Notes under the pieces: generated by a model
Told to the model about the DNA's origin: nothing
What the model saw: only the letters and a program-made list of their open reading frames with translations
Database searches by the model: none
Part shown: in pieces, positions 2,592-20,952 of the stretch
Numbering within the stretch: the first letter of the stretch is position 1
Layout: the number at the start of each line of letters is the position of its first letter
Origin: Serratia symbiotica
GTDB lineage: Bacteria; Pseudomonadota; Gammaproteobacteria; Enterobacterales; Enterobacteriaceae
Assembly (NCBI RefSeq): GCF_000821185.2
Contig: NZ_CP050855.1
Location: 372,001 to 436,000, forward strand
Direction: 5' to 3'
Length of the DNA stretch: 64,000 nucleotides
Translations under genes and position numbers: made by a program

Positions 2592-2840
2592 TCAGAGGTT
2601 CTCCCAACTGACATCAACTTCATCTTCATCCTGGCGGCTACGGACAATATTAGCAAGCTCACGATCTTCAATGGCATCCAGCATTGCCGCATAAAGCTCC
2701 GCAGGAATGCAGTAGAACGAAGGTTTACTGTGGTTCAGGATAGCTACTGGTCGCCCCCCTGCTGACATCACTATCGCCGTCGGATTTTTTTTTAGCTCAC
2801 TGATAGTGGCTGAGCGATTAGCAAGGATTGCAGTTATCAT
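2592..2840 (-). CDS. stbD: Phd/YefM-StbD-type antitoxin
   Basis: An 82-residue antitoxin with the family N-terminus ILANRSATISELKKNP, the GRPVAILNHSKPSFYCIPAELY core that forms the Phd-fold DNA-binding dimer, and an acidic C-terminal tail that would wrap the toxin. It is the first gene of the pair and is expected to repress its own promoter, which should lie in 2841-2900. The next ORF downstream is the StbE-type toxin, separated only by the stop codon. Confidence 0.84.
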   Translation of the reverse strand: MITAILANRSATISELKKNPTAIVMSAGGRPVAILNHSKPSFYCIPAELYAAMLDAIEDRELANIVRSRQDEDEVDVSWENL

Positions 2841-3028
2841 TTAAAACCTCAATTAAGACCTGTTTTTAGCCCTAATGATAGTGAGAAAATCTTGTGAAAG
2901 CAATAACGAATAGTCCGTTTTTTGAGCGCGATCCGGTTGTTATCGTCCGTGTAAAAAATGAATCCAGAACAACATTCATATAATGCGTGATTGTATTCCA
3001 CGTTGTCAGAAGGCAGGTTGAGAATATA

Positions 3029-3400
3029 TTAAAATGGTTTTGGCCAGAATGATAACCTTCGGGATAATGTACTAACGTCACAGCTGAACATCTTACCATC
3101 GGAATTACCCCATTCCTGGTATTTTGAAAGAGGGATTTGAAGATCTGTTTTGCTGGCATAATTAATTACGTTACCACTGGATGCAGTGCAACTAAGAACA
3201 GCTTTAAAATGCGAATGTAATGAATATGAAAAAAGAGAGTAAACGTCAGGGGGGATGTGATAATTTATGACCAGCCATCCGTTGTTGTTAAGCCGGTCTG
3301 CACAGGACACTAGAAAGCTCCGCTTTGATTGTAGCGGAATCATAGCATCTTCTAAATAAAGGTCTGAAAATATAATATCATACCTGCCCGCATTAACTCT
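3029..3400 (-). pseudogene. spermidine-synthase-like protein, truncated C-terminal part
   Basis: From about 3400 downward the minus strand encodes a class I methyltransferase-fold fragment with AGRYDIIFSDLYLEDA and LNNNGWLVINYH, which resemble the D-[IV]-I-x-S-D active-site strand and the following strand of spermidine synthase-like proteins. The N-terminal part, with the SAM-binding Gly-rich loop, is missing: above 3400 the DNA is a TraG-like fragment read on the other strand. An intact ORF continues into that junk to 3481, but this is a chance fusion. It is a broken gene at a recombination junction. Confidence 0.55.
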
Positions 3401-3760
3401 GTGGGTTGGATAGGCAGCGACTACTTTCTGAATACCTCTGACTATTACGACGACTACACGTCCATGACGCCCCGTCGCCAATGGCCGTACGACGACAGTC
3501 GAGACAGTGGCTACGCTGATATCGGTCAGGGAGGCTATCCTACCTGCAAGACCTTGTGGTCAGACAGCAGCGTCGGGCTACGTAAACGCGTGCTGGCAAG
3601 CTTCAGCGATAGCACGCGTAAAGAGATGCAGCGTCAGTTCCCTGGCTCACAGTGGGAAGAGCCCGCACTGCGGTGGCTGGTGAGTCCGCGAAATGCCGGA
3701 CTTTCTGGAGGAGGGACTACCTATGCCATAGGCAGTGCAGATAATACGACAGGTATATAG
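3401..3760 (+). pseudogene. second TraG-N-like fragment
   Basis: Encodes about 119 residues of the middle of a TraG-N-like ICE protein (SDYFLNTSDYYDD, GGYPTCKTLW, LRKRVLASFSDSTRKEM). It is cut on the left by the spermidine-synthase-like fragment and on the right by a stop just after NTTGI, where AT-rich cargo DNA begins. The stretch 3609-3696 is nearly identical to 1-88, but after that the DNA diverges while the protein stays similar (AGLSGGGTTY against AGLSGSGVTY). This suggests mosaic copies from two related elements rather than a simple duplication. Confidence 0.65.
3609..3696 (+). repeat. direct repeat of window positions 1-88
   Basis: These 88 bases equal positions 1-88 except for one A/G difference (position 43 against 3651). 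Identity ends abruptly at the codon for Ala in SPRNAGL. The left limit of the repeat is outside the window. The two copies, 3.6 kb apart in direct orientation, could recombine and delete the TA region between them. Confidence 0.85.
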
Positions 3761-3891
3761 ACAAATAATTCCAAATCAAACCTATAAAAAACATAAAGAT
3801 ACGCCAACTATTTTTCACACATCAAACCTAGTTTGTTTGGCTTGATACTGATATGATGGTCTTTAAGTAAAGCTTTTAAAAGAGCCATAAA
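3761..3891 (+). promoter_or_regulatory. AT-rich upstream region of the methyltransferase module
   Basis: The ten-base word ATCAAACCTA occurs at 3775-3784 and again at 3821-3830, and the second copy is part of a small palindrome CAAAC-cta-GTTTG at 3823-3835. A weak TTGATA...TATGAT-like promoter lies at about 3842-3860. The spaced repeats would suit a regulator-binding site or a module boundary. No regulator gene is adjacent, so this is tentative. Confidence 0.3.
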
Positions 3892-5217
3892 ATGGATGTA
3901 CTAAATCAGGATAGAGGTCTTCTTAAAAGGATTGAAGCCTACTCGTTGGAGGATGAGGCATATTGGTCATTTAGAGGTCGTTCTAAAAGACATCACTGTC
4001 ATGATTTAATCCAATACCCAGCGATGATGATCCCGGAAATGCAGGGAGAACTTATTGATGCGGTATTGGAAGGAGATCGAAATGTACGCAGAGTGTTCGA
4101 TCCTTTCGTTGGATCTGGTACTACTCTCGGTGAAGCTATGTGCAGGGGGTTAGATTTTTTAGGGATAGATATTAATCCACTAGCGATTTTAGCATGCGAA
4201 GTCAAAAGTGGGCCACTTTATACCAAAAAGCTAAATGATAAAGCCGCACTGTTAATAAATGCAATTCAGAATGATGAGTCGGAGAAAATTGCAGTCAGCT
4301 TTGAAGGTATCGATAAATGGTTTATTAAATCTGCACAAATCGAATTAAGTGCAATATATAGAGCTATTAAAGCTGAACCTTCGAAATGGGCAAGGAAGAT
4401 TTTCTGGCTATCCATGAGCAGCACTGTAAGGGCCGTATGCAACTCGAGGAGTTCGACTTACAAGTTGCACATAAAAACTGAAGAAGCAATAGAAGCGACA
4501 CCTTCTGCGAGAGAGGTTTTTGAGAAAAAACTTCTAAAAAACATTGAGAACATTAAGGATCAAAAGCAGATTTTTACTGAAAATAACGTGCTAAAGATGG
4601 CATCGTCAATCAGTGATGTTATTATCAAAAATGCGAATTCTGCAAACAAAATAAGAAACTCACTAAAGTATGACTTGTTAGTCAGTTCACCTCCTTATGG
4701 TGATAACCAAACAACAGTCACATATGGACAATTCTCGTATCTTCCTTTGATGTGGATTGATTTGAGTGACATTGATAATTTGACTCAAGAAGGGCTTCTT
4801 GCGCATAAAAGTGCTATTGATTCAATGAGCTTGGGGGGGTCATTAAAAGATTCCGCAATTAAATATGAAGAAATAAAAATGCGATCTGTATCATTGGTCA
4901 ACAGTGTTGAAGAGATTAAGTCTGTTAATCCTGACAACATAAAGAAGCTAATTTCATTTGTTTATGATTTAGATTTATCTCTATGTAATTCTCTAAGTTT
5001 ATTGCGAGATAATGCATATATGATTTGGACGTTAGGGAATAGGAGAATTTCTAACATTGAGGTTCCATTAGATAGAATTATGAGAGAGCTACTTGAGTTC
5101 AGAGGATGCCACTTCGTTCATAAATTAGAACGAGATATACCTTCGAAGAGAATGGCCACAAGAAATCAAATAGCGTCAACTATGGGAAAGGAATCAATTT
5201 TAATAATGAGGAGATAA
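3892..5217 (+). CDS. DNA methyltransferase (N4/N6 amino type) of the GHKL-ATPase module
   Basis: A 441-residue protein with a SAM-binding motif I, DPFVGSGTT, at residues 70-78, followed by an acidic strand end (GIDINP), and a catalytic motif IV SPPY at residues 266-269. SPPY is more typical of N4-cytosine than N6-adenine enzymes, though this is not decisive. The ~190 residues between the motifs would hold the target-recognition region, giving an alpha-like motif order. GC content is visibly lower than in the ICE backbone, so it is likely acquired cargo. It is followed after 97 bases by the GHKL ATPase on the same strand; methyltransferases paired with MORC/MutL-like ATPases are known from restriction-like operons (Iyer, Abhiman and Aravind). 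No restriction nuclease gene is adjacent. Confidence 0.82.
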   Translation: MDVLNQDRGLLKRIEAYSLEDEAYWSFRGRSKRHHCHDLIQYPAMMIPEMQGELIDAVLEGDRNVRRVFDPFVGSGTTLGEAMCRGLDFLGIDINPLAILACEVKSGPLYTKKLNDKAALLINAIQNDESEKIAVSFEGIDKWFIKSAQIELSAIYRAIKAEPSKWARKIFWLSMSSTVRAVCNSRSSTYKLHIKTEEAIEATPSAREVFEKKLLKNIENIKDQKQIFTENNVLKMASSISDVIIKNANSANKIRNSLKYDLLVSSPPYGDNQTTVTYGQFSYLPLMWIDLSDIDNLTQEGLLAHKSAIDSMSLGGSLKDSAIKYEEIKMRSVSLVNSVEEIKSVNPDNIKKLISFVYDLDLSLCNSLSLLRDNAYMIWTLGNRRISNIEVPLDRIMRELLEFRGCHFVHKLERDIPSKRMATRNQIASTMGKESILIMRR

Positions 5218-5314
5218 TGGTGGGGTAACTTCACTAGTTTGGTCTATTTTTGTTTTTCATGTTTTTTGGTAAGTTTTAATAATTAAGTGCTATTTAGAAT
5301 AAGGGGGTTTTTTT

Positions 5315-7384
5315 ATGTCGTCTGCATCACTAAAATTTAGTGGAAACCTGATTGAGGAACTTTCGCAAAAGATTCCTTCGTCATTATTTGCGTTAAATGA
5401 ACTTATTAAAAATGCATACGACGCTTTTTCGCCTGACGTCGTGATCAATATCTCCCTTTCAAAACAAACCATAACAATTACTGATCACGGAAACGGTATG
5501 GGAACGGAAGATATTGAGTCTCTGTTCCATATATCAAAAAGCACAAAGCGCTACGGTTATGAAGTGGAGCAAGATGGTGTAAGAAGGCTTACTCAAGGCT
5601 CTAAAGGACTTGGGTTTCTTTCCGCTTTCAAATTTGGCGATAAAGTTGAATGGGTAACATGTAAGACTGGGGTTCGTAGTAAATTTTCAGTACGTAAGTC
5701 AGAGTTGGTAGCGAAAGATGATGTTGCTGGAACTGTAATACCAGTAATAACAGACTCTCATTCTGAGAGCGGAACAATAATCACTGTTTATTCAAATAAG
5801 GGTGAGATTGAAGAACTGTTATCAGATTTGTCTGACAATAGGGTTGTTGAGAAATTAGCAGCAGCAATAATTGATGACTCATTTAATATTAATATTAATA
5901 TTGAAAACCAACAGCAAGTCGTTTCAACAAAAAAGTTGAACTCATTTCAGAAAGAGAACGAAGAAAACCAGTTGTTTTATGTTGCATATGACTCGCTTGA
6001 AAATGAAATTGAATTTTATCACAAGGGTGAGCATGTAAAGTCTTTTCCATTTGAGCTGGAGAGGACTGACTATTCAGTCAGTTTAGAGTTGATTATCTTT
6101 CACTTTCAACAAGGTAAAAACTCTAAGTCTGTCTCGTCATTAAATAGAAGAACCCATGATGATTCTCTTTACCCACTAGTATACATAAATAGAAATCTTT
6201 TCAACAATACTGTTATTTTTGACCCTGAAGTACTGAGGAAGAAAAGCTCTGGAGAAACGCTCCCTCAGATGATAGGTAGAGTTAGCGTGACATGTCAGAG
6301 TAAATACATTGAATTTAATTCAGATAGAACAAACTTTGTTGAAAATAACTTAACGAGATCTCTGCTTAAAGATCTTGATGGTCTTAATAAGTTGATTCAA
6401 ACTAAGGGTGCCGAGTTAAAAAAAGGTCTAAGGAGTAACAAAAAAGTACCGACAGGAAAGGCAATGCCCGTTGAAAGCGCGAATGAACAAAAAAATGGTA
6501 CCGCATTGATATTAGTTGACAGGAAAAAGCCAACCACTTATTACACGCCTTCAGAGCAAATAGACTTGGAGGAATACATCTTTCAAGTTAGAAATAGTCT
6601 CGGCGAGGATGTAAAAAATGCCGAAGTGGAAATTATAATCGACGGAGAAAAATCAAGTAGTAGAGTGCTATCCTCGGTTGAGGAACCATGCGAGAAAAAA
6701 GTTTGTTTTAGATATCATGATACAATAACAAATCTTGTGTCGAAAGAGATAACTCTATCTTTCGAACTTAAAATTTCCAACATTTCTGGGACAGTTCAGG
6801 AGAAGTCTCTATTCACAATACAATCAGGTTCCAACTACAGCGTCAGAATAGAAACCGTTTCTGATCTTATCAATGCAATTGATAAAGCGTATTCGTCCAG
6901 GTCTAAAGAAGAATTTTTACCAGTAATTGCTTGCTCAATTAGATCAATATTCGAAATATCGTCAGATAAAATACTTAAAGCAAGAAAAAAATGGTTTGCA
7001 AAATTTGATGAAAGCAAGCTTAGTAGTACAGCTAAGAGGGAGATAAAAGATAAATTATTACTGAATGTAGTTCACCTTGTTCTTTTGTTGAAGAAAAATC
7101 CTAGGCTTGTAACTGAAATATCTGATGTATCAGGTGTGGCTTATTCGACCCTTAATAACTTGTTAGATGTAAGGGATTTCAGGAATTCTGTAAAAAATTC
7201 ACATGTCGGTGCTCACCAATCAACGAGATATTTATCTAAGCCTAAAGTCGAGTCTTGTGCGGATGCGTGTGGCCACTTTTCAGTTATATGTGATGTATTA
7301 TTAAATAGCAATAAAGTAGCGGCGTTTAATATAAATAAAGTAGATGAATCTGACATAGAGGAGGTGTTTGGGTTCATAGCGTAG
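5315..7384 (+). CDS. large GHKL (MORC/MutL-like) ATPase with HEPN-like C-terminus
   Basis: A 689-residue protein. The N-terminal 200 residues form a GHKL (Hsp90/MutL/MORC) ATPase: N-box NELIKNAYDAF with Glu29, Asn33 and Asp36, G1 motif DHGNGMG at 57-63, and G2 motif GSKGLG at 95-100. A middle transducer-like region (~200-390) includes YINRNLF and SDRTNF. Residues ~420-520 look like a beta-rich, Ig-like domain. The C-terminal ~170 residues are helical and carry RNSVKNSH (Arg623, His630) and GAH (634), which fit the R-x4-6-H motif of HEPN ribonucleases or the similar Abi_C domain. With the methyltransferase upstream it may form a modification-guarded defence system, the ATPase sensing and the HEPN-like part acting. 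The ATPase call is firm; the HEPN reading is inference. Confidence 0.8.
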   Translation: MSSASLKFSGNLIEELSQKIPSSLFALNELIKNAYDAFSPDVVINISLSKQTITITDHGNGMGTEDIESLFHISKSTKRYGYEVEQDGVRRLTQGSKGLGFLSAFKFGDKVEWVTCKTGVRSKFSVRKSELVAKDDVAGTVIPVITDSHSESGTIITVYSNKGEIEELLSDLSDNRVVEKLAAAIIDDSFNININIENQQQVVSTKKLNSFQKENEENQLFYVAYDSLENEIEFYHKGEHVKSFPFELERTDYSVSLELIIFHFQQGKNSKSVSSLNRRTHDDSLYPLVYINRNLFNNTVIFDPEVLRKKSSGETLPQMIGRVSVTCQSKYIEFNSDRTNFVENNLTRSLLKDLDGLNKLIQTKGAELKKGLRSNKKVPTGKAMPVESANEQKNGTALILVDRKKPTTYYTPSEQIDLEEYIFQVRNSLGEDVKNAEVEIIIDGEKSSSRVLSSVEEPCEKKVCFRYHDTITNLVSKEITLSFELKISNISGTVQEKSLFTIQSGSNYSVRIETVSDLINAIDKAYSSRSKEEFLPVIACSIRSIFEISSDKILKARKKWFAKFDESKLSSTAKREIKDKLLLNVVHLVLLLKKNPRLVTEISDVSGVAYSTLNNLLDVRDFRNSVKNSHVGAHQSTRYLSKPKVESCADACGHFSVICDVLLNSNKVAAFNINKVDESDIEEVFGFIA

Positions 7385-12138: not shown

Positions 12139-12192
12139 CTCTGGATCTTGCCTTGGTCATACAAGAATGATTAACATGCTTACTTTCTTACC

Positions 12193-12324
12193 GTTGCTTT
12201 AAGCAACATGCCAATGTCCCAGTGATCTGAGAGGGGTGCCTTCGGGTGATCGCACTGCCAATGCCACCATAACCTGAGAGGTGGTGCCTTCGGGCGGTAC
12301 CCCCGTCAACCTTTGAGAATGGGG
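12193..12324 (+). ncRNA. tandem-pseudoknot RNA element, copy A
   Basis: Starts with a hairpin GTTGC/GCAAC (12193-12207). Two ~47-nt units follow, each beginning TGCCAATG and containing CTGAGAG and GCCTTCGGG. Unit 1 pairs CCC 12218-12220 with GGG 12233-12236 and, crossing it, GTGATC 12222-12227 with GATCGC 12248-12253. Unit 2 pairs CCACC 12264-12268 with GGTGG 12280-12284 and ACC 12272-12274 with GGT 12296-12298. A last stem pairs CCCC 12301-12304 with GGGG 12321-12324. It lies 55 bases after the OLD-like pseudogene. Strand is chosen because all three copies share it. I do not recognise an Rfam family. Confidence 0.65.
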
Positions 12325-12383
12325 ATCGCTGTAAGGTCTCTTCTACTTCAATATGCTGATTTTACGCAATTACGGATGGCATA

Positions 12384-12523
12384 TTGACTTTAGCAGAAAA
12401 AATTCTCTCTGAGATGCTTTGGAACTGATCTATCAGCAACAGTTAACCGATGAAATGATTGCAAAACCTTGTAAAAGGATCGCAGTTCGATCTAATATCT
12501 TTCCTGTTGTAACGTTGCGATAA
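12384..12523 (+). pseudogene. possible small gene remnant between RNA copies A and B
   Basis: A reading frame (LAEKILSEML, then LIYQQQLTDEM and RIAVRSNIFPVV) can be followed if one frameshift near 12415 is allowed. It would start at the TTG at 12384 and stop at the TAA 12521-12523, which lies inside the first hairpin of RNA copy B. The peptide looks protein-like but matches nothing I know. Confidence 0.25.
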
Positions 12524-12644
12524 GCAACATGCCAATGTCCCGGCAATCTGAGAGGGACGCCTTCGGGTGATTGCATGCCAAAACTGTCATGACCTGAGAG
12601 ACGGTGCCTTCGGGCGGTAAACCCGTTAGCCTTTGAAAATGGGG
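12514..12644 (+). ncRNA. tandem-pseudoknot RNA element, copy B
   Basis: Same architecture as copy A. Leader hairpin 12514-12528. Unit 1: TCCC 12538-12541 with GGGA 12554-12557, crossed by GCAATC 12543-12548 with GATTGC 12569-12574. Unit 2: CTGTC 12584-12588 with GACGG 12600-12604, crossed by ACC 12592-12594 with GGT 12616-12618. Terminal stem CCCGTT 12622-12627 with AATGGG. Several pairs differ from copy A and C but remain paired, which supports an RNA (or single-stranded DNA) structure. Confidence 0.65.
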
Positions 12645-12652
12645 ATCGCGTT

Positions 12653-13042
12653 AACAGCGATAAAGGATATTACTTCACTGACAGCCTGCCTTTGGCAGCG
12701 CTTCGCGCAGACTGTTTAAGTCTGCCATCTTCGTTTCGTCTCGAATTTTTGACGACTGCATCCGTTGCAAACTTTGCGGCGTGGGGATGACCATTTGGCA
12801 CATTTGGGCATCTTCCACGACAGCATTGAGAGCAGAGGAGCGCGGCGTCACTTGCGTTCGAGTGAAACGAGTACCAAGTGACGCGCGCAGCGCACAACCG
12901 GCAGCACTGACGTACTGCCACTTCAACAACATTTCTACCATCTGACCAACACGTAGTGACGGTTTTAAAACGCATAACAGATCGTTTAACTGTCATTCAG
13001 GTCATTAATCACTCACCAACTGTCTTATCAGCGGAAACATGT
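12653..13042. other. non-coding stretch between RNA copy B and the hairpin-rich region
   Basis: About 390 bases, GC-rich in the middle. Minus-strand reading frames of 88 and 108 codons overlap here, but their composition (many Cys, Ala and Arg, with two frames open together) looks like chance. No RNA gene is recognised. Confidence 0.45.
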
Positions 13043-13132
13043 ATGAAGACAACTTTTAAATTAGAGGAGGTAAATCAACACGACATCGATGGCGACACCA
13101 GGAAGCTGGTGTGTGGAGGTAGACTGATGTAA
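13043..13132 (+). CDS. possible 29-residue peptide
   Basis: MKTTFKLEEVNQHDIDGDTR... starts at an ATG with only a weak ribosome-binding site and stops at the TAA at 13130-13132, inside the first hairpins of the following structured region. It may be a leader peptide or the 5' end of a lost gene. Not recognised. Confidence 0.25.
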   Translation: MKTTFKLEEVNQHDIDGDTRKLVCGGRLM

Positions 13133-13340
13133 ATCAGCCCGGCGTAAGCCGCGAACAGGTCTGAGACCTGGGGAGCCTCGCAAGAACTCAACATTTCGCC
13201 GCCCCGATGCACAGATGTCTGTTGAGACGCAGGAAGCGCAAAATTAACCGTGCCGTCGGGGTGAGATGTTTTTGACTGAAGTATCCGGGGAGCCGGTGAG
13301 TTAGGCATTCCGTTCACCGGGACGGAATGCCTAACTCACC
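13093..13340 (+). ncRNA. hairpin-rich leader with a 19-bp perfect palindrome
   Basis: Four short hairpins follow each other between about 13094 and 13170: ACACCAG/CTGGTGT, CTGAT-GTAA-ATCAG, CGGC-GTAA-GCCG (two GNRA loops) and CAGGTC-TGA-GACCTG. After a spacer comes a perfect 19-bp inverted repeat, 13295-13313 with 13322-13340, loop TCACCGGG. The palindrome ends 21 bases before the recombinase-like gene at 13362, and its ribosome-binding site lies just after it. It could be a structured leader, an attenuator, or a recombination site. The pattern is clear; the function is not. Confidence 0.5.
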
Positions 13341-13361
13341 TTGTGTCAATTTGGAGTGTTT

Positions 13362-14249
13362 ATGGCGAAATTAAATAAAAGCCTGGTCACACTTGCTCGC
13401 CAGGCGGGAGGCAGTTTTAAGACCGTTTCCGACAGAATGAAAATAGCCGATCGTTTGGCAGACCGTTTATTAAAAATGAATATTCAGATCCGCGATGCCG
13501 GGAACTTGAAAACACAGCATATTACTCTTTACATAGAAAGCCGGCTTTCAGAGGACATATCCAAACGTACGTTGCAAAATGAAATGGCGGCAATCCGGGC
13601 GATACTTCGTACTGCGGGTAAAACGTTTATGGCTAATCCAGAGCATGAGAAATTAAGCAACGCTGCGTTAGGTATTTCAGGCACCAGTCGAGATGGTACT
13701 AAAGTCGCCATTCCTGATGATGTATATAAAGAAACTCTTGATAAAATCCGTGAAGTTGATGCGGGGGCTGCGATCGCTATGGAATTATCGCGACATCTTG
13801 GTTTGCGTACGGAGGAAACGATGCAATCGGTTAAGTCATTAATGACCTGGCAAAAGGCCCTTCAGAGTGATATTGAAAAAGTCAGGATAGTTTTCGGCAC
13901 GAAAGGGGGGCGACCTCGCGACACGACAATTATTGACCGCCAGACTTTGCTTGGCGTCGTAAATAACGCAATACGCTTTATAAAAAATAACAACGGGAAA
14001 TTGATTGATAAAGCGGGGATCCACCTTGCCATTGAGCGATATCGCAATATTGTCAGAGATGCCGGTCTTGTGGGTAAATATGCCCCGCACAGTTTGCGAT
14101 ATGCTTATTCAATAGATGCAATGAAATACCATTTAGAAAAGGGATTTAGCCAGAAAGAAGCTGAAGCATTAGTTTCCATGGATTTAGGTCATGGGGACGG
14201 TCGGGGGCATTACGTGACTCGTGTTTATAACAAGGTAGATAGCGATTAA
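13362..14249 (+). CDS. tyrosine-recombinase-like ICE protein (Integrase_1 type)
   Basis: A 295-residue protein. The N-terminal ~110 residues fit a SAM-like core-binding domain (MKIADRLADRLL...LQNEMAAIRAILR). The C-terminal part is a tyrosine recombinase catalytic domain: GLRTEE with the first arginine, a TKGGRPR strand with the lysine, HSLRYAY as the H-x-x-R box, LGHGDGRG, and the tyrosine in VTRVY. I chose the ATG at 13362, with TTGGAG upstream, over the TTG at 13341. Such integrase-domain proteins are common ICE and plasmid genes of unclear role, distinct from the integrase at 26074. Its stop codon touches a miniature transposon. Confidence 0.72.
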   Translation: MAKLNKSLVTLARQAGGSFKTVSDRMKIADRLADRLLKMNIQIRDAGNLKTQHITLYIESRLSEDISKRTLQNEMAAIRAILRTAGKTFMANPEHEKLSNAALGISGTSRDGTKVAIPDDVYKETLDKIREVDAGAAIAMELSRHLGLRTEETMQSVKSLMTWQKALQSDIEKVRIVFGTKGGRPRDTTIIDRQTLLGVVNNAIRFIKNNNGKLIDKAGIHLAIERYRNIVRDAGLVGKYAPHSLRYAYSIDAMKYHLEKGFSQKEAEALVSMDLGHGDGRGHYVTRVYNKVDSD

Positions 14250-14252
14250 GAT

Positions 14253-14552
14253 GGACCAGCGGGAGCATTTGAACAAAGATTTACGGTTTCGCGCTATTGC
14301 TGGCCTGGTATACCCCCGATAAGAGGGTTGCGGTATCTTTTCTATCAAAACTCATGCAGGCCGGGACAATTGAGAATTTTGTTTTGAGAATGGATTTTGA
14401 GTATCGTAACATGTTGATATTACAATATGAACAGAGACGCAGTTTAGGTTCTCACAAATCCTCGTTTTAGTAGCGCCAATGGTTGGCAGTTATCGCAGTT
14501 ACCCGGTCGTTACCCAAACCGTAAGTTTCTGCGCTAATGCTCCCGCTGATCC
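14253..14552. mobile_element. 300-bp miniature inverted-repeat element with target duplication
   Basis: The ends form a 17-bp inverted repeat with one mismatch (GGACCAGCGGGAGCATT against GGATCAGCGGGAGCATT), and similarity continues inward with a shared TTACGGTTT. Both sides are flanked by AAGAT (14248-14252 and 14553-14557), a 5-bp target-site duplication. No transposase ORF is inside. The left duplication overlaps the stop codon of the recombinase-like gene. This is the pattern of a MITE mobilised by a transposase elsewhere. Confidence 0.72.
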
Positions 14553-14584
14553 AAGATAATAGGTTATGTGAACTGGAATGAATG

Positions 14585-14609
14585 ATTCTGGCCCATGTCG
14601 GGCCAGAAT
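14585..14609. terminator. bidirectional hairpin between convergent genes
   Basis: A perfect 10-bp stem, ATTCTGGCCC with GGGCCAGAAT, loop ATGTC, lies between the recombinase-like gene and the end of the protease gene. It is followed by a moderately T-rich run on the plus strand, so it likely ends transcription from both sides. Confidence 0.65.
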
Positions 14610-14614
14610 TCATT

Positions 14615-16816
14615 TTAGAGTATGACTGGGACTGGTACCGGGATGCGCGGCTGTATTTCAACAAGACGTGAGTCGGAATGTAGGATACCGGAAAATATTT
14701 CCGGAGTTTTTGGTGACTCAAGTGAGACTACAAATGCGTAGCGAATGCTCGCGGCTTTCGAACCTGTAATTTGATCGCCACCTTCACGAGCCATATAATG
14801 AATTTCAAAGCAAGGGCGAATCAATTTATCACCAATCTTATTTAGATCTGCGCTCAGTACCGATTCCCATTTCCCCGCGTCGGCACGCAGTTCAGCTTCA
14901 GTCGCGATGGATGTCTGTTTAAAGAAAGACTGGGTTTTTTCTGGGTCTGGCCTGAAAGTGATTTCCACGCCAGCGCGGGTGTACATCGACGTATCTTGCG
15001 GATCGACGGGACTTGAGAAACAGCAAGTAGCACGAATTTTTACTTTTCCTTTGATGCCTGATTCAGGGATTGGTAATGGCACGCGAAGATATTTCCCCGC
15101 AGCAAGTTCTCCCTGATAAAGGATACGAGCGGTACCCGGCGGAGATTCTATTATCTGGCTTATTGAATCAGGCACCTTTCCCCAGCCAACTTCTCCTTTT
15201 CCATGTTCAGCACGGTCAGCAGCATTAATTAATAGTGCTTTAATGGCGAGTGGTGAAATTTCATGGCCTAGAATGGCTCGAATGCCAACGGCGTAACGTA
15301 GTAAGAATGGTGCTGAAAAGCTGGTGCCACAAGTCGGCACAAGCTTGCCAAGATCGAGGTCGCTTGGGACGTGGAAGTATTGACGCGGTGTCCCCCCAAA
15401 AGCAACTAGATCGGGCTTCACCAGGCCAGGCGAGCGTCCAGGGCCTACGGCACTGTAAGATGCTCGCTTCCAGCCGGTTTCAACCTGATCTGTGGCTCCC
15501 ACTGATAGCGCGTTCACGCAGTCTGATGGCACTTGGATACGGTTAAGACCCAGAGAACTTTCACTGTCGCCATTATTACCCGCTGCGATGGTGAGGAAGG
15601 TGTCCCCGTCAGCAAGATAAATATCAATGAGGGATGTCCATGGATGAATTTCGTCGTCGTCTATCGGCAAAGCCGGGCCAAGACTTAGGTTCAGAAATTC
15701 ATACTGGCGGGAAAGTAGAATGTCTTCCAGATGTGACAACGTCCGGTAAAGCTCAAACGGATCTTCTGTGCCAATGTTGCTATCGAGGATGCGGTGGTGA
15801 TCAACATAGGAATAAGGCCGACTCGCCTTTTCTCCCGGCCATAGCGGGCCGAAGAGAAAAGCTGATGTCACACCTAAGCCATGTGAAGGGCCATCAGGGT
15901 GATCACTAGCACTGGCATCGGCGTGGGTATAATTGGTTACCCAAGGCTCCAAAACGTGACTTGCTGGCAATCCACCATCTAATATAGCGACGCGAATGTC
16001 AGAAGCATAGGGCTGAACGTCGGGCAGATTTATATTTGCTCCTACAGGCATTCCCCTTGTGATTGGCCGAAATGAACGCATGGCAGGCAGTGGCCTTATA
16101 ACACGCAGGAATGAAAATTTCGCAAGACGTGGCAGGCACTCTTCATCACCGGCTATTGGCATAAACCAGAGGTTGCCCACCTCGATGGCCATGCTATCTT
16201 TGACGTCAAATCCCAGCTCACCGGCATAGTTGATGAAGGAGGTTTTAATGAAGTCATTGCCCCCAACTGGCATCAACTGTAGGCCAACTTCCCAAAATCC
16301 TTTGTAAGCATCAGTGTTGTGTTTAATTTTATCGGCAATGTCAGGCTCGGTAACACTCCAGACACGAAACAGATCGGATGCCCCCCGACTATCTTCTGTG
16401 AAATAATTTAACTCTTGGCTGAACTCAGTCAGTCGGTAACGCTTGCCTGCGACAAAAATCTTTGTGGTTGGCGACTTAGCAGGTGGACCATTACGCGTCC
16501 AGCGATCGGGCAGGATTTCAACACCTTTGCTGCCGATTGAACTGACTGCCATTTCCTTAAAAAGGGTTCGAGGAAAATGTCCTTTTGCAATGTAAGACGG
16601 GTGTAGAGTGATAGCGGCAACAGCAAAATCCTTTGGGCAGACCTCATCGTCGAGGTCGTTCAGTCTACTTACAGTCTTTTCGAACTGTGGAATCAATCTT
16701 TCCATCACTTCGGGGAAGGTGTATATCGGGTCTGATTTTGGATTAATTTTTGGCGGTGGCGTATGAGATGCCAGAACCTCTGCCTTGCCAATAATATAAT
16801 TACGCTTTTCAGCCAT
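14615..16816 (-). CDS. ietS: IetS-like subtilisin-family serine protease
   Basis: A 733-residue S8-family protease. Catalytic triad: Asp280 in VAILDGG, His312 in SHGLGV, Ser499 in GTSFSAP, with the oxyanion asparagine in AAGNNG (411-416). A ~260-residue N-terminal region precedes the protease domain, and a C-terminal beta-rich domain (~570-733) follows. There is no signal peptide, so it acts in the cytosol. Its start overlaps the end of the AAA ATPase gene by 8 bases. An AAA ATPase and a subtilase in this order make up IetAS, a validated anti-phage system. The pairing and lengths fit; identity to a characterised IetS was not tested. Confidence 0.85.
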   Translation of the reverse strand: MAEKRNYIIGKAEVLASHTPPPKINPKSDPIYTFPEVMERLIPQFEKTVSRLNDLDDEVCPKDFAVAAITLHPSYIAKGHFPRTLFKEMAVSSIGSKGVEILPDRWTRNGPPAKSPTTKIFVAGKRYRLTEFSQELNYFTEDSRGASDLFRVWSVTEPDIADKIKHNTDAYKGFWEVGLQLMPVGGNDFIKTSFINYAGELGFDVKDSMAIEVGNLWFMPIAGDEECLPRLAKFSFLRVIRPLPAMRSFRPITRGMPVGANINLPDVQPYASDIRVAILDGGLPASHVLEPWVTNYTHADASASDHPDGPSHGLGVTSAFLFGPLWPGEKASRPYSYVDHHRILDSNIGTEDPFELYRTLSHLEDILLSRQYEFLNLSLGPALPIDDDEIHPWTSLIDIYLADGDTFLTIAAGNNGDSESSLGLNRIQVPSDCVNALSVGATDQVETGWKRASYSAVGPGRSPGLVKPDLVAFGGTPRQYFHVPSDLDLGKLVPTCGTSFSAPFLLRYAVGIRAILGHEISPLAIKALLINAADRAEHGKGEVGWGKVPDSISQIIESPPGTARILYQGELAAGKYLRVPLPIPESGIKGKVKIRATCCFSSPVDPQDTSMYTRAGVEITFRPDPEKTQSFFKQTSIATEAELRADAGKWESVLSADLNKIGDKLIRPCFEIHYMAREGGDQITGSKAASIRYAFVVSLESPKTPEIFSGILHSDSRLVEIQPRIPVPVPVIL

Positions 16817-17924
16817 TTATTATCTCCTTTGCTGTCAATCGCTTGCGGATTGTTTCCCTGCTTACATTAGCGATTTTTGCGGCTTTTTGCTGAGTGAGCC
16901 CATACTGACTAACCAATTTGACTGCAAAGCTAATTTTTTCTGCTTTAGTTTTGCTTCCTGCGTCAAAATCAAGCTGTGCAATCAGGTCAGTTTCAAAATG
17001 CTCTGGGCGAAGAATATGGAGTCGGCGCAGCTGTGAAATCTCGCGCTTGATGTTGCTGAAAGATTGCCCCCTAAAGCTTTCCTTTAGCAGGTCATACCAA
17101 GGTGCCAATACGACAAAATCATCACCAGCAAAGCGCTTAACGGCATCAGCTACCTGAGAATCATTTGGAAGTTTAAATGTCACTTCCAAATCAAACCTAC
17201 GCCATAAGGCGGGATCCACCAAATCTGGGTGGTTAGTTGCAGCGATCAATAAACCGCTTACTGGCCAGTCTTCGAGCTCCTGCAACATAATGGTCACCAG
17301 TCGTTTGAGCTCACCTACATCAGACTCATCTGTGCGCTTTTTGGCAATCGCATCGATTTCATCAAGCAAAAGAATAGATGGGTGAGACTTAGCAAAATCA
17401 ATAACGCTTCTAAGATTGCTGCCGGTTTTGCCTAGAAAACTACTCATCACAGTGGTTAGGTCTAAGGTGTAAAGTGGAAGTCCAAGCTTTTGCGAAAGCC
17501 ATTGCGCAGTCATTGTTTTACCCACGCCAGGTGGCCCACTGAAAATTAGCGATTTAGTGGGGACAAGACCGTGCCGAACCAACAGAGCACTTTTTTCTCG
17601 TTCCAATAAAACGTGCTCGAGCTGACTCTTAACTTGACCTTGCAACAGAGGAGGTTCCCTGTTTTCTATTGCTGGTTGCATTTTTAGCAATGTCTGAGGT
17701 ACTACATCGTCCGAAGCTGTGCCTGTGAACTCGAAGGAATGTGGCTCTTTTCTCATCACATTATGAGAGCGGGCAGGATGGAGTTTAAGTAGTTCCTCAA
17801 CTTTTGAAGCAAGCAACGGATCACTTTTTCGAAGTGATCGTACATGCTTGGCAAGATAGAGCCTTAAATCCTTATCATTCCCTTCAAGAGATAGCTTGAT
17901 AATACTGGCCAAATCGAGTTCCAT
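16809..17924 (-). CDS. ietA: IetA-like AAA+ ATPase
   Basis: A 371-residue AAA+ ATPase. N-terminal ~90 residues are helical and may bind the partner or substrate. The ATPase core has Walker A GPPGVGKT at 130-137, pore-loop-like SSFLGKTG at about 161-168, Walker B LLLDEID at 185-191, sensor 1 AATNHP and arginine finger region LWRRFD, as in the FtsH/katanin group. The C-terminus has a helix-turn-helix-like segment (TQQKAAKIANVSRETIRKR). It starts the two-gene operon with the subtilase and probably feeds or controls the protease in phage defence. Promoter expected in 17925-18000. Confidence 0.85.
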   Translation of the reverse strand: MELDLASIIKLSLEGNDKDLRLYLAKHVRSLRKSDPLLASKVEELLKLHPARSHNVMRKEPHSFEFTGTASDDVVPQTLLKMQPAIENREPPLLQGQVKSQLEHVLLEREKSALLVRHGLVPTKSLIFSGPPGVGKTMTAQWLSQKLGLPLYTLDLTTVMSSFLGKTGSNLRSVIDFAKSHPSILLLDEIDAIAKKRTDESDVGELKRLVTIMLQELEDWPVSGLLIAATNHPDLVDPALWRRFDLEVTFKLPNDSQVADAVKRFAGDDFVVLAPWYDLLKESFRGQSFSNIKREISQLRRLHILRPEHFETDLIAQLDFDAGSKTKAEKISFAVKLVSQYGLTQQKAAKIANVSRETIRKRLTAKEIING

Positions 17925-18245
17925 TATAGCACCTTGGTCATTTATAAATTTAACTAATTGATATTTATAGGTAAAAATAAATATTTCTTGTGGCGATTTA
18001 TAGTCATTTTTATCATTATAGACATAGTGGTTCAGGTTGTCAGTAGATACTGGTTTTTCTTACAGTGTGACTGCCACACTTACAGGTAAAAGAGATTACG
18101 GCTGTGTAGGTGGAGTTTCGAAAATAGTTGACGCCAAATAGTCAGTCCTAATGTGTACTAATGCTGTAAATCAGCCGCAGCGAGTTTTCTTTTAGCAGAT
18201 ACTATTGCCGGAGATGCACGTATTGTGTACGATTAATTTGCTTAC
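17925..18245. other. AT-rich divergent intergenic region upstream of the IetAS pair
   Basis: About 320 bases with no gene. It should carry the IetA promoter toward the left (AT-rich 17935-18010) and leads into RNA copy C on the right. No clear operator was seen. Confidence 0.5.
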
Positions 18246-18376
18246 GTTGTCTCTGACAACTGCCAATGTTCCGGTGATTTGAGAGGAACGCTTTCGGGTA
18301 ATCACATGCCAATGCCATCACAACCTGAGAGATGGCGCTTTCGGGCGGTTCAAACCTGTTAACCTTTGAAAACAGG
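18246..18376 (+). ncRNA. tandem-pseudoknot RNA element, copy C
   Basis: The most diverged copy, and the one that best supports the model. Leader hairpin GTTGT/ACAAC (18246-18260) against GTTGC/GCAAC elsewhere. Unit 1: TTCC 18269-18272 with GGAA 18285-18288, crossed by GTGATT 18274-18279 with AATCAC 18300-18305. Unit 2: CCATC 18315-18319 with GATGG 18331-18335, crossed by AACC 18322-18325 with GGTT 18347-18350. Terminal stem CCTGTT 18355-18360 with AACAGG 18371-18376. Every helix is kept by paired changes. Confidence 0.68.
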
Positions 18377-18503
18377 GACCCTGGCGGTTAAGGTCCATTC
18401 AACCCACTTCTTGATTTATCTACATTCCCACGGGACAACGCTTCCCCTCATGTGAGGATGAATTTCCGGATCGTACCTGGCAAATTATCCATGTTGCAGA
18501 GCT

Positions 18504-19083: not shown

Positions 19084-19112
19084 CCTTAATACGACGGCTG
19101 CGGTCGTCGTCG

Positions 19113-19172
19113 TCCCCCTGAGGGCATCTTCCTCAGGGGGATGCCCTCTTTTCATTTCCAACCGTAAAGAGG
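19113..19172 (+). promoter_or_regulatory. alternative-hairpin leader upstream of the Api92-like gene
   Basis: Three stems use overlapping bases. S1: 19113-19123 with 19131-19141 (TCCCCCTGAGG with CCTCAGGGGGA). S2: 19120-19128 with 19140-19148 (GAGGGCATC with GATGCCCTC), followed by TTTTC as in a terminator. S3: 19145-19151 with 19166-19172 (CCTCTTT with AAAGAGG), which would mask the ribosome-binding site of the gene at 19182. S1 and S2, and S2 and S3, exclude each other. This looks like an RNA switch; the same design precedes the next gene. Confidence 0.6.
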
Positions 19173-19181
19173 AGTACAACA

Positions 19182-20132
19182 ATGTTTCCATGGTGCCAAA
19201 ACCGTCTGGAAATTACCGGCAAGTCAGTCTGCATCGACGTGATGCAGTCATGGATTGCCGGCACGGAAACCCCGCTGTACCGCCATGCCATCCGGCAGGC
19301 AACAAAGCTTTTTCTGGCCGGTTGTGCCGGGATATTGAAGCCTGTGAAGGCGGTGGATTACGCGCCTTATCCGATGATGACCGCATCAGGCACGGGCGCA
19401 CCGACTTCCCCTAACCAGGCGTTCCAGCACTTTGTTGAGTTGTTGGAGCAGGACGCCTGGCTTGACAGCAAGACGCTCGCCCGAATGGAGAAGATCTGGG
19501 TACAGGCCGGCATTGATGCGCTGAAGTGGGAAAATATCCCTTCTTCAGCGCGGCAGGTCATGGCTCAACTGATGGCTGTGCACTATACCGACTGGTTCGG
19601 CGTGGCCGCTGCAAGCGGCAGGTTCGATCCGCAAGAGCGTTGGGAAGGGTTCAACGTCATGCCGGAGACGACTTGCCCGTGTGACATGTTGATGGTGATG
19701 CCATCACGCCTGGCAACGGAGCTCAACGGCGAGAGTGGCCTGTTTAAGGGACTCAACACCACGTCAGAACTGTATGTACAGCTCTTCGGTGTAGAGTTTC
19801 CGGCAGGCCATCAGGCCAGTTGGTGTCGCGAGGACGTCGGCTCACTGACATTGACCTTGTCATCCCCATGGTATCCGCCATCAGGTGAGGTCATGGGGGA
19901 AATGTCGCAGCTGTTTGACTGTGAAATCCGCCATTACTGGATTTCACCAGAGGCAGGCTTATCAGGCTACAGCTGTTTTGACCAGGGAGACCACGTCGAC
20001 AGCGGGCCGTATCCGGCAGAGGTACTGCGACAGACCACCGCCGGCGAGGGTGCCCGAATGTATCTGGTGACGCCCGAGGCCTCGCCTGTTCCTACTGTGA
20101 CCACTGCACATTACAGCAACATCCGCGTTTAG
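19182..20132 (+). CDS. DUF1281/Api92-like ferredoxin-fold protein
   Basis: A 316-residue protein starting FPWCQNRLEITG, the signature of the DUF1281/Api92-like family found in enterobacterial plasmids, ICEs and phages. The middle holds conserved WVQAGIDALKWENIP and YTDWFG segments, and the C-terminal half has the ELYVQLFGVEFPAGH...LTLSSPWYPPSGEV region with the predicted ferredoxin-like fold. Role unknown. A strong AGAGGAG ribosome-binding site precedes the ATG but can be hidden in leader stem S3. It is followed after 130 bases by the N6-methylase-like gene with a similar leader. Confidence 0.75.
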   Translation: MFPWCQNRLEITGKSVCIDVMQSWIAGTETPLYRHAIRQATKLFLAGCAGILKPVKAVDYAPYPMMTASGTGAPTSPNQAFQHFVELLEQDAWLDSKTLARMEKIWVQAGIDALKWENIPSSARQVMAQLMAVHYTDWFGVAAASGRFDPQERWEGFNVMPETTCPCDMLMVMPSRLATELNGESGLFKGLNTTSELYVQLFGVEFPAGHQASWCREDVGSLTLTLSSPWYPPSGEVMGEMSQLFDCEIRHYWISPEAGLSGYSCFDQGDHVDSGPYPAEVLRQTTAGEGARMYLVTPEASPVPTVTTAHYSNIRV

Positions 20133-20262: not shown

Positions 20263-20952
20263 ATGAAAAATGCTATCAACCATGAAAAGGCCTTCATTTC
20301 TCTTTTTAACCAGACAGCCCGTTATTATCACCGTCATCAGGTCTTTGAGGACTTCATCAGTTGCAGCGTTATCGCATTGCAAAACGGTCTGCATTTCTGC
20401 GACAAACGTGAGCAGAAATATATGCGCATTGTAGCCAGATACCAAAAGCCGGATGTATCGAACTTGGCGCAGTTGCTGGGGCATGTTGTTAATGGCCTGG
20501 AAGAGGCTCCGGGAGATTTTCTCGGGCGCGTCTTCATGCAGTTGGAGCTTGGCGACAAATACCGTGGCCAGTTTTTCACCCCGTGGAGCGTGAGCCTGAT
20601 GATGGCTCAATTGCAGCTCGGCAACGTTGGGGAACAGTTCAGTGACAAAGCCTTTATTACTCTGTCAGAACCCGCCTGTGGCGCGGGCTGCATGACGCTG
20701 GCCTTTGCCAGCGTGCTGCGGGAGGCAGGCTATTCTCCTCACCGTCACCTTTGGGTATCGGCAACTGATATCGATCCGCTGGCGGCTGGGATGGCCTATA
20801 TACAGCTTTCGCTGTGTGGAGTCGCTGGAGAAGTGGTCATCGGGAATTCACTCAGTGATGAGCGACGGCGTGTCCTGTATACGCCAGCACACCACTGGGG
20901 AGGATGGTCACTGCGCCTGAACACACATTTTAACACTGCTGTTGCAGTCTGA
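20263..20952 (+). CDS. N6-adenine DNA methylase-like protein
   Basis: A 229-residue protein. The GDKYRGQFFTPW segment and the SAM-binding EPACGAGCMTLAFA match the type I HsdM-like N6-methylase fold, with ATDIDPLA as the following acidic strand. The expected catalytic (N/D)PP(Y/F) motif IV is not present: the chain ends about 75 residues after the SAM motif, with IGNSLSDERR where it would be expected. Similar short proteins are common in plasmid leading regions and ICEs. It may be inactive as a methylase or bind DNA only. Confidence 0.72.
   Translation: MKNAINHEKAFISLFNQTARYYHRHQVFEDFISCSVIALQNGLHFCDKREQKYMRIVARYQKPDVSNLAQLLGHVVNGLEEAPGDFLGRVFMQLELGDKYRGQFFTPWSVSLMMAQLQLGNVGEQFSDKAFITLSEPACGAGCMTLAFASVLREAGYSPHRHLWVSATDIDPLAAGMAYIQLSLCGVAGEVVIGNSLSDERRRVLYTPAHHWGGWSLRLNTHFNTAVAV

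Follow-up and report, generated by a model that had tools for sequence, protein, structure and literature searches.

The three tandem-pseudoknot elements found in a 64,000-nt stretch of the Serratia symbiotica contig NZ_CP050855.1 (positions 372,001 to 436,000, hereafter the window) are members of the known STAXI RNA family (RF01728), and comparison with their relatives makes it very probable that STAXI is a transcribed 5' leader, which would start at an ordinary promoter. One of the three copies stands ahead of an EFASI RNA (RF02957) and a tyrosine recombinase gene, and the simplest reading of this arrangement would be that STAXI forms the 5' end of a single RNA in which EFASI lies towards the 3' end.

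Identity of the elements

All three elements are matched over the whole STAXI model by cmscan against Rfam, with 108.6-122.6 bits against a cut-off of 40.5, and Rfam lists them as STAXI only, the radC RNA (RF01754) being matched by none of them. A preliminary description of the stretch, made from the letters alone, had recognised no Rfam family and had itself named a significant match to a known element as what would speak against it, and such a match is what was obtained. It had placed the copies correctly, but its ends were too short, the covariance-model limits lying 17-27 nt further in each copy. The pseudoknot unit is repeated at least twice, as two units plus a terminal pseudoknot, and an integrase gene is found nearby, XerCD-type integrases being among the neighbours expected of the family together with SSB, topoisomerase and antirestriction genes. 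STAXI was indeed named after its neighbour genes, and single-stranded DNA (ssDNA) was considered in its original description, RNA being preferred owing to the UUCG loops (Weinberg et al. 2010, PMC2864571). No function has been assigned to STAXI since 2010 in the literature searched, which mostly leaves out subscription papers.

The name EFASI abbreviates Enterobacteriaceae, Frequently Around STAXI and Integrases (PMC12370729), and members of the family often lie 3' of STAXI, at a distance of several hundred bp, and ahead of integrase genes (PMC12370729, from Rfam). The window copy conforms to this, since it scores above the cut-off and is located 3' of a STAXI and 5' of the integrase gene. Furthermore, vesicles of a single E. 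coli strain yielded cDNA of both STAXI and EFASI (PMC12370729). The host genome contains six STAXI matches, five of them above cut-off, and one EFASI match. A further STAXI copy of this genome (locus L005, 1501-1613; C1:3123660) scores 42.2 bits; by eye, it starts like the type seen in locus L144 and its second half is unlike STAXI.

The STAXI fold

Alignment A1, into which the crossing helices were written, comprises 39 two-unit copies including the three of the window (21 of 22 rows picked by script, the three-unit L045 being dropped, and 18 picked by hand). It shows a leader hairpin followed by three units, each of which consists of a helix 1, a crossing helix 2 and a hairpin between their 3' strands. 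Standard pairs fill 97.2% of the 1850 pair cells and two-sided changes are found at 28 of the 48 pairs, neither value being reached in any of 500 shuffles, and sliding the partners by 1-3 columns lowers pairing to 36-52%. The core of the preliminary description, namely a repeated tandem H-type pseudoknot RNA with real covariation on a mobile element, is thus confirmed by the 39 copies, and the three copies with the compensatory changes that it quoted can be read in the sequence. What it took for a final stem is a third pseudoknot with the topology of the other units (helices 8-10, that is CCTGTT/AACAGG, AACCTT/AAGGT and a hairpin between them), in which helix 9 is paired in 90.2% of cells and varies little. 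The motifs that it called constant are likewise not fully so, since unit 1 of copy 3 contains TTGAGAG, both units of that copy contain TTTCGGG, and unit 2 of copy 2 is preceded by TGCCAAAA. The loops TGAGAG and UUCG are nevertheless near-constant alongside covarying stems. The number of units with a TGAGA-type loop, counted by eye, ranges from one (L119) to four (L068), to which the terminal unit is added.

The coding-sense strand can be taken as the folding strand because G-U pairs far outnumber A-C pairs, with 128 vs 13 cells in A1, and with 79 vs 13 when the two UUCG stems, which are partly fixed by the search pattern, are left out. In helix 1 across 128 distinct units there are likewise 30 G-U and 5 A-C pairs in a total of 640.

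A promoter-like site ahead of STAXI

A promoter-like site lies outside the STAXI fold and at a fixed spacing from it. The set on which it was scored started from 84 instances, from which 13 without a detectable leader hairpin were dropped and then copies more than 80% alike upstream, leaving 45 non-redundant copies (upstream 60 nt less than 80% alike); locus L047 and the duplicates of window stretches L002, L003, L004, L007 and L031 had been removed before counting. In 36 of the 45 copies the -10 hexamer begins 18-22 nt upstream of the leader hairpin, as compared with 16% in shuffles (100 each), and the best sigma70 site has a mean score of 8.47 vs 5.46 (standard deviation 2.07) in dinucleotide shuffles. 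The heads of EFASI loci, found with our own model as described below, have a -10 in register (positions -22 to -17) in 14 of 17 cases against 19% in shuffles, the other 7 of 24 loci, which lack a usable leader hairpin, having been left out. As to the window itself, copy 1 has its site in the register of the 36 copies, the site of copy 2 was read by eye since the script anchored on a different hairpin there, and that of copy 3 was likewise read by eye, with the scored register of its relatives L059, L091 and L098 as guide. The case for a promoter is one of position across relatives. Since a sigma70-like promoter at fixed distance is found together with a fold in the coding sense, STAXI most likely constitutes the transcribed 5' end of RNAs.

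STAXI and EFASI, probable parts of a single RNA

The preliminary description listed the three STAXI copies, but it missed both the EFASI RNA and a hairpin situated between EFASI and copy 2. This hairpin, which consists of the arms GCGTCACTT and AAGTGACGC around a variable inner part of 10-22 nt, was found in 20 of 20 window-type modules checked and in 28 of the 30 best other EFASI loci, and in L010 it shows a compensatory change at its second pair. De novo folding of the middle with RNAalifold supports this one hairpin, with 12 pairs in each of two alignments and two-sided changes at 2 and 4 of these, and supports no fold in the rest of the middle; the alignments of the 30 EFASI loci exclude L127, L137 and L141. 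The nearby element CCATTTGGNACATTTGG is recognisable by eye in about 12 of 20 modules (alignment A4). Towards the other end, EFASI pairing seems to continue about 40 nt beyond the Rfam model. The hairpin pattern is also carried by 23 viral-contig stretches (L147-L169).

How tightly hairpin and EFASI are linked can be seen from 392 genomes of the window's family, where EFASI occurs in 93 and the hairpin pattern in 87, a reversed control pattern being found in one genome only. Both are present in 86 of the 94 genomes with either, and EFASI lies 95-198 nt downstream on the same strand for at least 69 of 75 listed hairpins, compared with 86 listed EFASI positions, a lower bound because at least one unmatched hairpin (G513) does have an EFASI. 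STAXI is less readily recognised by the Rfam model, which matches it at 8 of the 30 best EFASI loci (L118, L121, L125, L128, L129, L135, L138 and L144), to which two loci with a radC RNA match (L130 and L131) can be added, all upstream and on the EFASI strand. A model built from A1, which includes helices unused by that of Rfam, finds a full-length STAXI-like element upstream and on the EFASI strand at 24 of the 30 loci (E at most 0.05). These comprise the ten Rfam-matched loci and 14 others in which neither STAXI nor radC scores above the Rfam cut-off. In 343 kb of other loci the same model gave 15 matches, none of which was judged to be due to chance. One of these, a putative STAXI-like match of 44.8 bits (L172, 3353-3530), which is not listed by Rfam's STAXI model, lies about 7.7 kb upstream of an EFASI.

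Our own script found an internal terminator-like site in 1 of 21 modules. Sense open reading frames (ORFs) of at least 40 aa are found between STAXI and EFASI in 20 of the 21, in varying places and of varying lengths, and a coding function of this region was set aside as no conserved ORF was seen by eye. Taken together, it appears likely, as far as sequence comparison goes, that a single promoter gives rise to one RNA of 0.46-0.82 kb, with STAXI at one end and EFASI at the other. There are exceptions that speak against a single unit, since EFASI comes without an exact match to the hairpin pattern in 7 genomes and the hairpin without EFASI in 1, six of the 30 EFASI loci (L120, L122, L123, L137, L142 and L145) lack a full-length STAXI-like match, the matches of L117, L126 and L134 lie about 1.1 kb upstream and not 0.2-0.7 kb, and L014 and L058 have STAXI before an integrase gene with no EFASI above cut-off.

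The recombinase beside EFASI

The gene following EFASI in the window encodes a XerC-like tyrosine recombinase, the XerC model itself being matched far under its cut-off. A long ORF starts 20-170 nt after EFASI in 26 of the 30 loci, that of L127 being read in a longer frame, and 25 of these look like one family. The tyrosine-recombinase residues R, K, HxxR, H and Y are kept in nearly all of 31 aligned homologues from both sets, the exceptions being L040, L142 and L143, which diverge or end early near the C-terminus, and L124, which has no lysine. Between EFASI and the integrase gene the window contains a perfect 19-bp palindrome with an 8-nt loop (13295-13340), and L054 and L059 have a palindrome at the same place whose stem is different yet perfect and whose ends are kept (GGTGA..TCACC), so that the two arms vary in step.

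The wider surroundings were scanned at four other EFASI loci (18 of 55 ORFs), and at two of these the recombinase is followed by an Ash-like or small protein gene and by P4-type primase-helicase genes. C4 antisense RNA is furthermore found near EFASI in 7 of the 30 loci (L118, L124, L125, L128, L129, L132 and L135). The module is thus not confined to integrative and conjugative elements (ICEs), because P4-type primase-helicase genes and C4 antisense RNA adjoin EFASI loci. The EFASI-recombinase units directly before P4-like primase-helicase genes are those of L171 (12561-14754) and L172 (12456-14901), one of which follows an Ash-family gene with a C4 RNA match.

Gene context and small plasmids

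The three STAXI elements of the window belong to an ICE of the PFGI-1/SPI-7 type; the window relaxase is of the PFGI-1 class, and BLAST and a collection scan show that ICEs of this type carry STAXI. Their gene order suggests that STAXI heads three kinds of transcript in these elements, leading into a DUF3577 gene, the antirestriction region or EFASI-integrase. STAXI precedes a DUF3577 gene in a fourth copy on the chromosome of the window (L001), and in L013 it precedes a STY4534/DUF3577 gene one gene after topoisomerase III. In E. coli LF82 (L012) the order is STAXI, EFASI, an 'integrase domain' gene, STAXI and the antirestriction and ArdC genes, and in L014 STAXI flanks the integrase gene on both sides. 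A pattern scan of genome contigs gave 67 stretches, one of which was judged a chance match (L047, from a Bacteroidota metagenome-assembled genome). Among 45 distinct downstream proteins of relatives, Pfam assigned 13 to DUF3577, 10 to Integrase_1 and 1 each to SSB and Antirestrict, the rest being other families, transposase types among them, or unmatched. A genome search with RF01728 gave matches in 7 of 394 genomes, a figure that understates the spread of STAXI since a different genome draw was used and stricter filters lose weak matches, and STAXI copy 3 had no BLAST match in phages among 50,697 records.

Eight small plasmids of 3.1-7 kb from Rahnella, Pantoea, Cronobacter and E. coli carry STAXI and then EFASI on the same strand (in L110 the module spans the record start), and no integrase is annotated on any of them. 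In the E. coli plasmid L108, of 3140 bp, the module makes up about a quarter of the molecule, and only rep and a 57-aa hypothetical ORF, itself inside the module, are annotated. On L109 (5319 bp) the module is accompanied by a gene for replication, one of LysE type and a partial pseudogene. In two Rahnella plasmids (L008, 2260-2691; L009, 2065-2637) the module is immediately preceded by a DUF29 gene, and in the Pantoea and Cronobacter plasmids a divergent DUF2442 gene lies beside it.

As regards other genes of the window, a subtilase (S8) gene next to an AAA ATPase gene is found on the minus strand between STAXI copies 2 and 3 (14615-17924), and this pair near the integrase looks like defence-type cargo by appearance. 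A further cargo region (2592-7384) contains a Phd/YefM-type antitoxin gene, a DNA methylase and a HATPase-domain protein, and adjoins a mutator-family transposase fragment.

Table 1. Positions of the features discussed, in window coordinates unless a locus is named
Feature	Position	Strand	Basis and remarks
Sigma70-like promoter of copy 1	12148-12177	+	TTGCCT 12148-12153, 18 nt, TAACAT 12172-12177; register as in 36 of 45 copies
STAXI copy 1	12192-12341	+	cmscan RF01728, 108.6 bits; leader hairpin, two pseudoknot units, terminal pseudoknot
Promoter-like site of copy 2	12469-12498	+	TTGTAA 12469-12474, 18 nt, TAATAT 12493-12498; by eye
STAXI copy 2	12513-12671	+	cmscan RF01728, 110.2 bits; heads the STAXI-EFASI-integrase unit
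CCATTTGGNACATTTGG element	12787-12812	+	between STAXI and EFASI, outside both Rfam models
Conserved hairpin GCGTCACTT-(variable inner hairpin)-AAGTGACGC	12845-12884	+	pattern match; between STAXI and EFASI, outside both Rfam models
EFASI RNA	13075-13224	+	cmscan RF02957, 86.5 bits, cut-off 51.2
Probable EFASI 3' extension	13225-13262	+	CCCCGA 13202-13207 with TCGGGG 13256-13261; both sides change together in relatives, by eye
Tyrosine recombinase (Integrase_1, XerC-like)	13362-14249	+	Pfam PF12835/PF12834; R-K-HxxR-H-Y residues
Promoter-like site of copy 3	18205-18233	+	TTGCCG 18205-18210, 17 nt, TACGAT 18228-18233; by eye
STAXI copy 3	18245-18398	+	cmscan RF01728, 122.6 bits; upstream of DUF1281 and N6-methylase genes
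DUF1281 gene	19182-20132		Pfam; downstream of STAXI copy 3
N6-methylase gene	20263-20952		Pfam; downstream of STAXI copy 3
radC RNA match, L173	10945-11084		Rfam RF01754; where STAXI would lie
radC RNA match, L130 and L131	1979-2116	-	Rfam RF01754; where STAXI would lie

Proposed role and alternatives

In the mechanism that we propose, a sigma70-type promoter would fire about 7 nt before the leader hairpin, as judged from its hexamers, and the nascent RNA would fold into the leader hairpin, one to four pseudoknot units and the terminal pseudoknot. Copy 2 would in this way head a long transcript extending through the conserved hairpin and then EFASI in the direction of the recombinase gene, copy 3 would head the DUF1281/methylase region, and the L001 copy of the same chromosome would do likewise before its DUF3577 gene. 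The folded leader would then act in cis on RNA polymerase or on transcript survival, as an antiterminator or stabiliser like the put RNA of HK022, and transcription of mobile-element genes and of the long untranslated STAXI-EFASI RNA would thereby be carried through to completion. The single transcript and the antitermination or stabilisation step are what we infer in this scheme, next to the family, structure, folding strand, promoter position, context and EFASI linkage, which are seen directly. Such an action of the leader in cis may be regarded as quite possible, if falling somewhat short of probable. It is favoured over other readings because the element could fold early, is reused before unrelated genes, shares its place with radC RNA, for which Rfam gives the type Cis-reg, and precedes a long untranslated RNA.

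The put RNA of HK022, the established case of such an action, needs no dedicated protein and putL is located just downstream of its promoter, and STAXI resembles it as an RNA element near the promoter of early mobile-element transcripts (PMC9378689), its promoter-proximal position on the nascent RNA being read from sequence alone. The likeness to radC RNA, which is listed in the study that describes STAXI (PMC2864571), is of another kind. Although the window copies match STAXI and not radC, radC RNA is found with 44.8-46.4 bits against a cut-off of 40 at the STAXI position of the EFASI units L130, L131 and L173, and the L173 copy has a hairpin, a pseudoknot unit and an order which by eye are as in STAXI, so the two families may be kin.

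Several observations should be mentioned that weigh against the cis-leader reading. No promoter in register is found in 9 of the 45 copies and in 3 of the 17 EFASI-locus heads, in some of which the script took the wrong hairpin, a consensus promoter scan lists none of the three window sites, which are individually weak, and the same scan shows no promoter excess in the region (11 sites vs 10.9 expected). In 20 of 77 instances a crude ORF caller places the first downstream ORF of at least 85 aa on the opposite strand. On the small plasmids the annotated gene that follows EFASI has the opposite orientation in 6 of 8 cases, in L109 EFASI is followed by the partial pseudogene and in L010 the next gene is beyond the record start, and because of this gene order a pure mRNA-leader role cannot be the whole story. 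A terminator-like site is found after the DUF3577 gene in six loci (L013, L052, L075, L080, L100 and L101), which counts against processive antitermination because antitermination should read through it. A laxer scan, which found 16 terminator-like sites in the window vs 7.4 expected, furthermore lists a strong hairpin that separates copy 3 from the DUF1281 gene (19111-19149, plus strand) and a weaker one that separates copy 2 from EFASI (12707-12725); these would be targets under antitermination and otherwise transcript ends. Finally, put measures about 70 nt in all and has two stem-loops (PMC9378689), while STAXI consists of about 150 nt of tandem pseudoknots, and no kinship of sequence or fold is claimed.

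A stand-alone small RNA ending after STAXI was likewise considered and is disfavoured, as our own script found a terminator-like site in the 250 nt that follow the loop of the first unit in just 1 of 85 instances, a few loci ending sooner, although the laxer scan still lists the two window hairpins just mentioned.

Close rivals of a leader acting in cis are a protein-controlled regulon and a trans-acting long RNA. The former notion, that STAXI leaders bind a common protein of the element or the host and tie several transcripts into a regulon, the unit number tuning the binding, stems from the observations that the same leader is found ahead of unrelated genes in one kind of element, that it has a variable number of similar units, that its near-constant TGAGAG and UUCG loops lie next to covarying stems, and that radC RNA with its Cis-reg type takes the same position. 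No candidate protein emerged, no search aimed at one having been made. No gene is common to all eight annotated small plasmids, which would leave the host as the only source of the partner, and we hold this regulon to be rather unlikely, though deserving of attention. CsrB is known to act by titrating CsrA, and under the protein-regulon view the long STAXI-EFASI RNA may in a similar way compete for the protein that the leaders bind.

The second rival, in which STAXI-EFASI is a long non-coding RNA acting in trans, in anti-defence, copy control or as partner of a recombinase, and the leader copies are secondary, is in agreement with the large share of the 3140-bp E. coli plasmid taken up by the module and with the order STAXI-hairpin-EFASI being kept on ICEs, on large and small plasmids and beside P4-like primase genes. 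Since STAXI also precedes protein genes with no intervening EFASI, we consider this reading unlikely. That the RNA forms a functional pair with the adjacent tyrosine recombinase is a doubtful proposition, and the same doubt attaches to its corollary, that small plasmids devoid of a recombinase use or counter that of co-resident elements. Large ornate RNAs such as GOLLD, ROOL and OLE are often found on mobile DNA. STAXI-EFASI would share with them the properties of being long, multi-domain, conserved and non-coding (PMC12286853), no kinship being shown.

Less probable still is that the element works as structured ssDNA, be it as an ssDNA promoter or priming site such as Frpo/ssi or as an origin of transfer. 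STAXI resembles Frpo/ssi in the occurrence of several copies before establishment-type genes, and the idea draws on SSB, antirestriction and methylase neighbours typical of leading regions (PMC11541004). It also draws on the near-invariant palindromic arms GCGTCACTT/AAGTGACGC, which resemble a protein site, and on the relaxase-less plasmids carrying the module, which would fit mobilisation in trans. Frpo, however, folds the promoter itself on ssDNA, with -35 and -10 inside a template-strand hairpin, whereas STAXI follows a promoter-like site that does not fold and itself folds in the coding-sense strand (PMC11541004). Indeed, when the promoter stretch of six copies was folded as template strand, it did no better than shuffles (z -0.85 to 0.53). 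The excess of G-U over A-C pairs, the position of the promoter-like site outside the fold and the UUCG loops (PMC2864571) all argue likewise, and some weight is left for ssDNA at the palindromic hairpin only. As to transfer, oriT1 and oriT2 have been described for ICEclc, and the literature searched holds no usable map of transfer direction for the SPI-7-type class.

The comparison with type III antitoxin RNAs, made in the preliminary description on account of the tandem pseudoknot repeats, finds no support. A type III system would place a ToxN/AbiQ-family RNase gene next to the repeats, and Pfam shows no match of this type in the 45 distinct downstream proteins of relatives or in 20 window ORFs on both sides of the copies, which bears out the remark in that description that no ToxN-like gene is adjacent. 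The repeats are moreover part of a promoter-proximal leader with a terminal pseudoknot, and this explanation is accordingly rejected as highly improbable.

Implications

The sequence, tandem pseudoknots, UUCG loops and neighbour genes of the window copies are those of STAXI as described (PMC2864571), and the accessible parts of that description are exceeded by the fixed promoter, the several transcript classes in one kind of ICE and the link with EFASI. Likewise, the window EFASI follows STAXI and precedes an integrase as the family does, and the consulted portions of PMC12370729 are exceeded by the STAXI-like head at 24 of 30 EFASI loci, the conserved linking hairpin and the pairing that seems to extend about 40 nt beyond the model. 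As far as our searches go, subscription papers having mostly been outside them, three findings are new, namely the promoter register, the classes of transcript and the unit shared with EFASI and the recombinase.

If STAXI lies at the 5' end of transcripts in the coding sense, the choice between RNA and ssDNA left open for this family becomes directly testable. The hairpin common to 86 of 94 positive genomes joins two orphan Rfam families into one larger object, which has a recombinase gene alongside in most loci and whose range takes in ICEs, plasmids of 3 kb or more and the neighbourhood of P4-like primase genes. Should STAXI prove to be a put-like leader, it would represent a widespread RNA antiterminator of mobile elements. 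Should the RNA instead act together with the recombinase, about a quarter of the sampled genomes (93 of 392) would possess a large structured RNA tied to a tyrosine recombinase, and this would be a new kind of mobile-DNA machinery.

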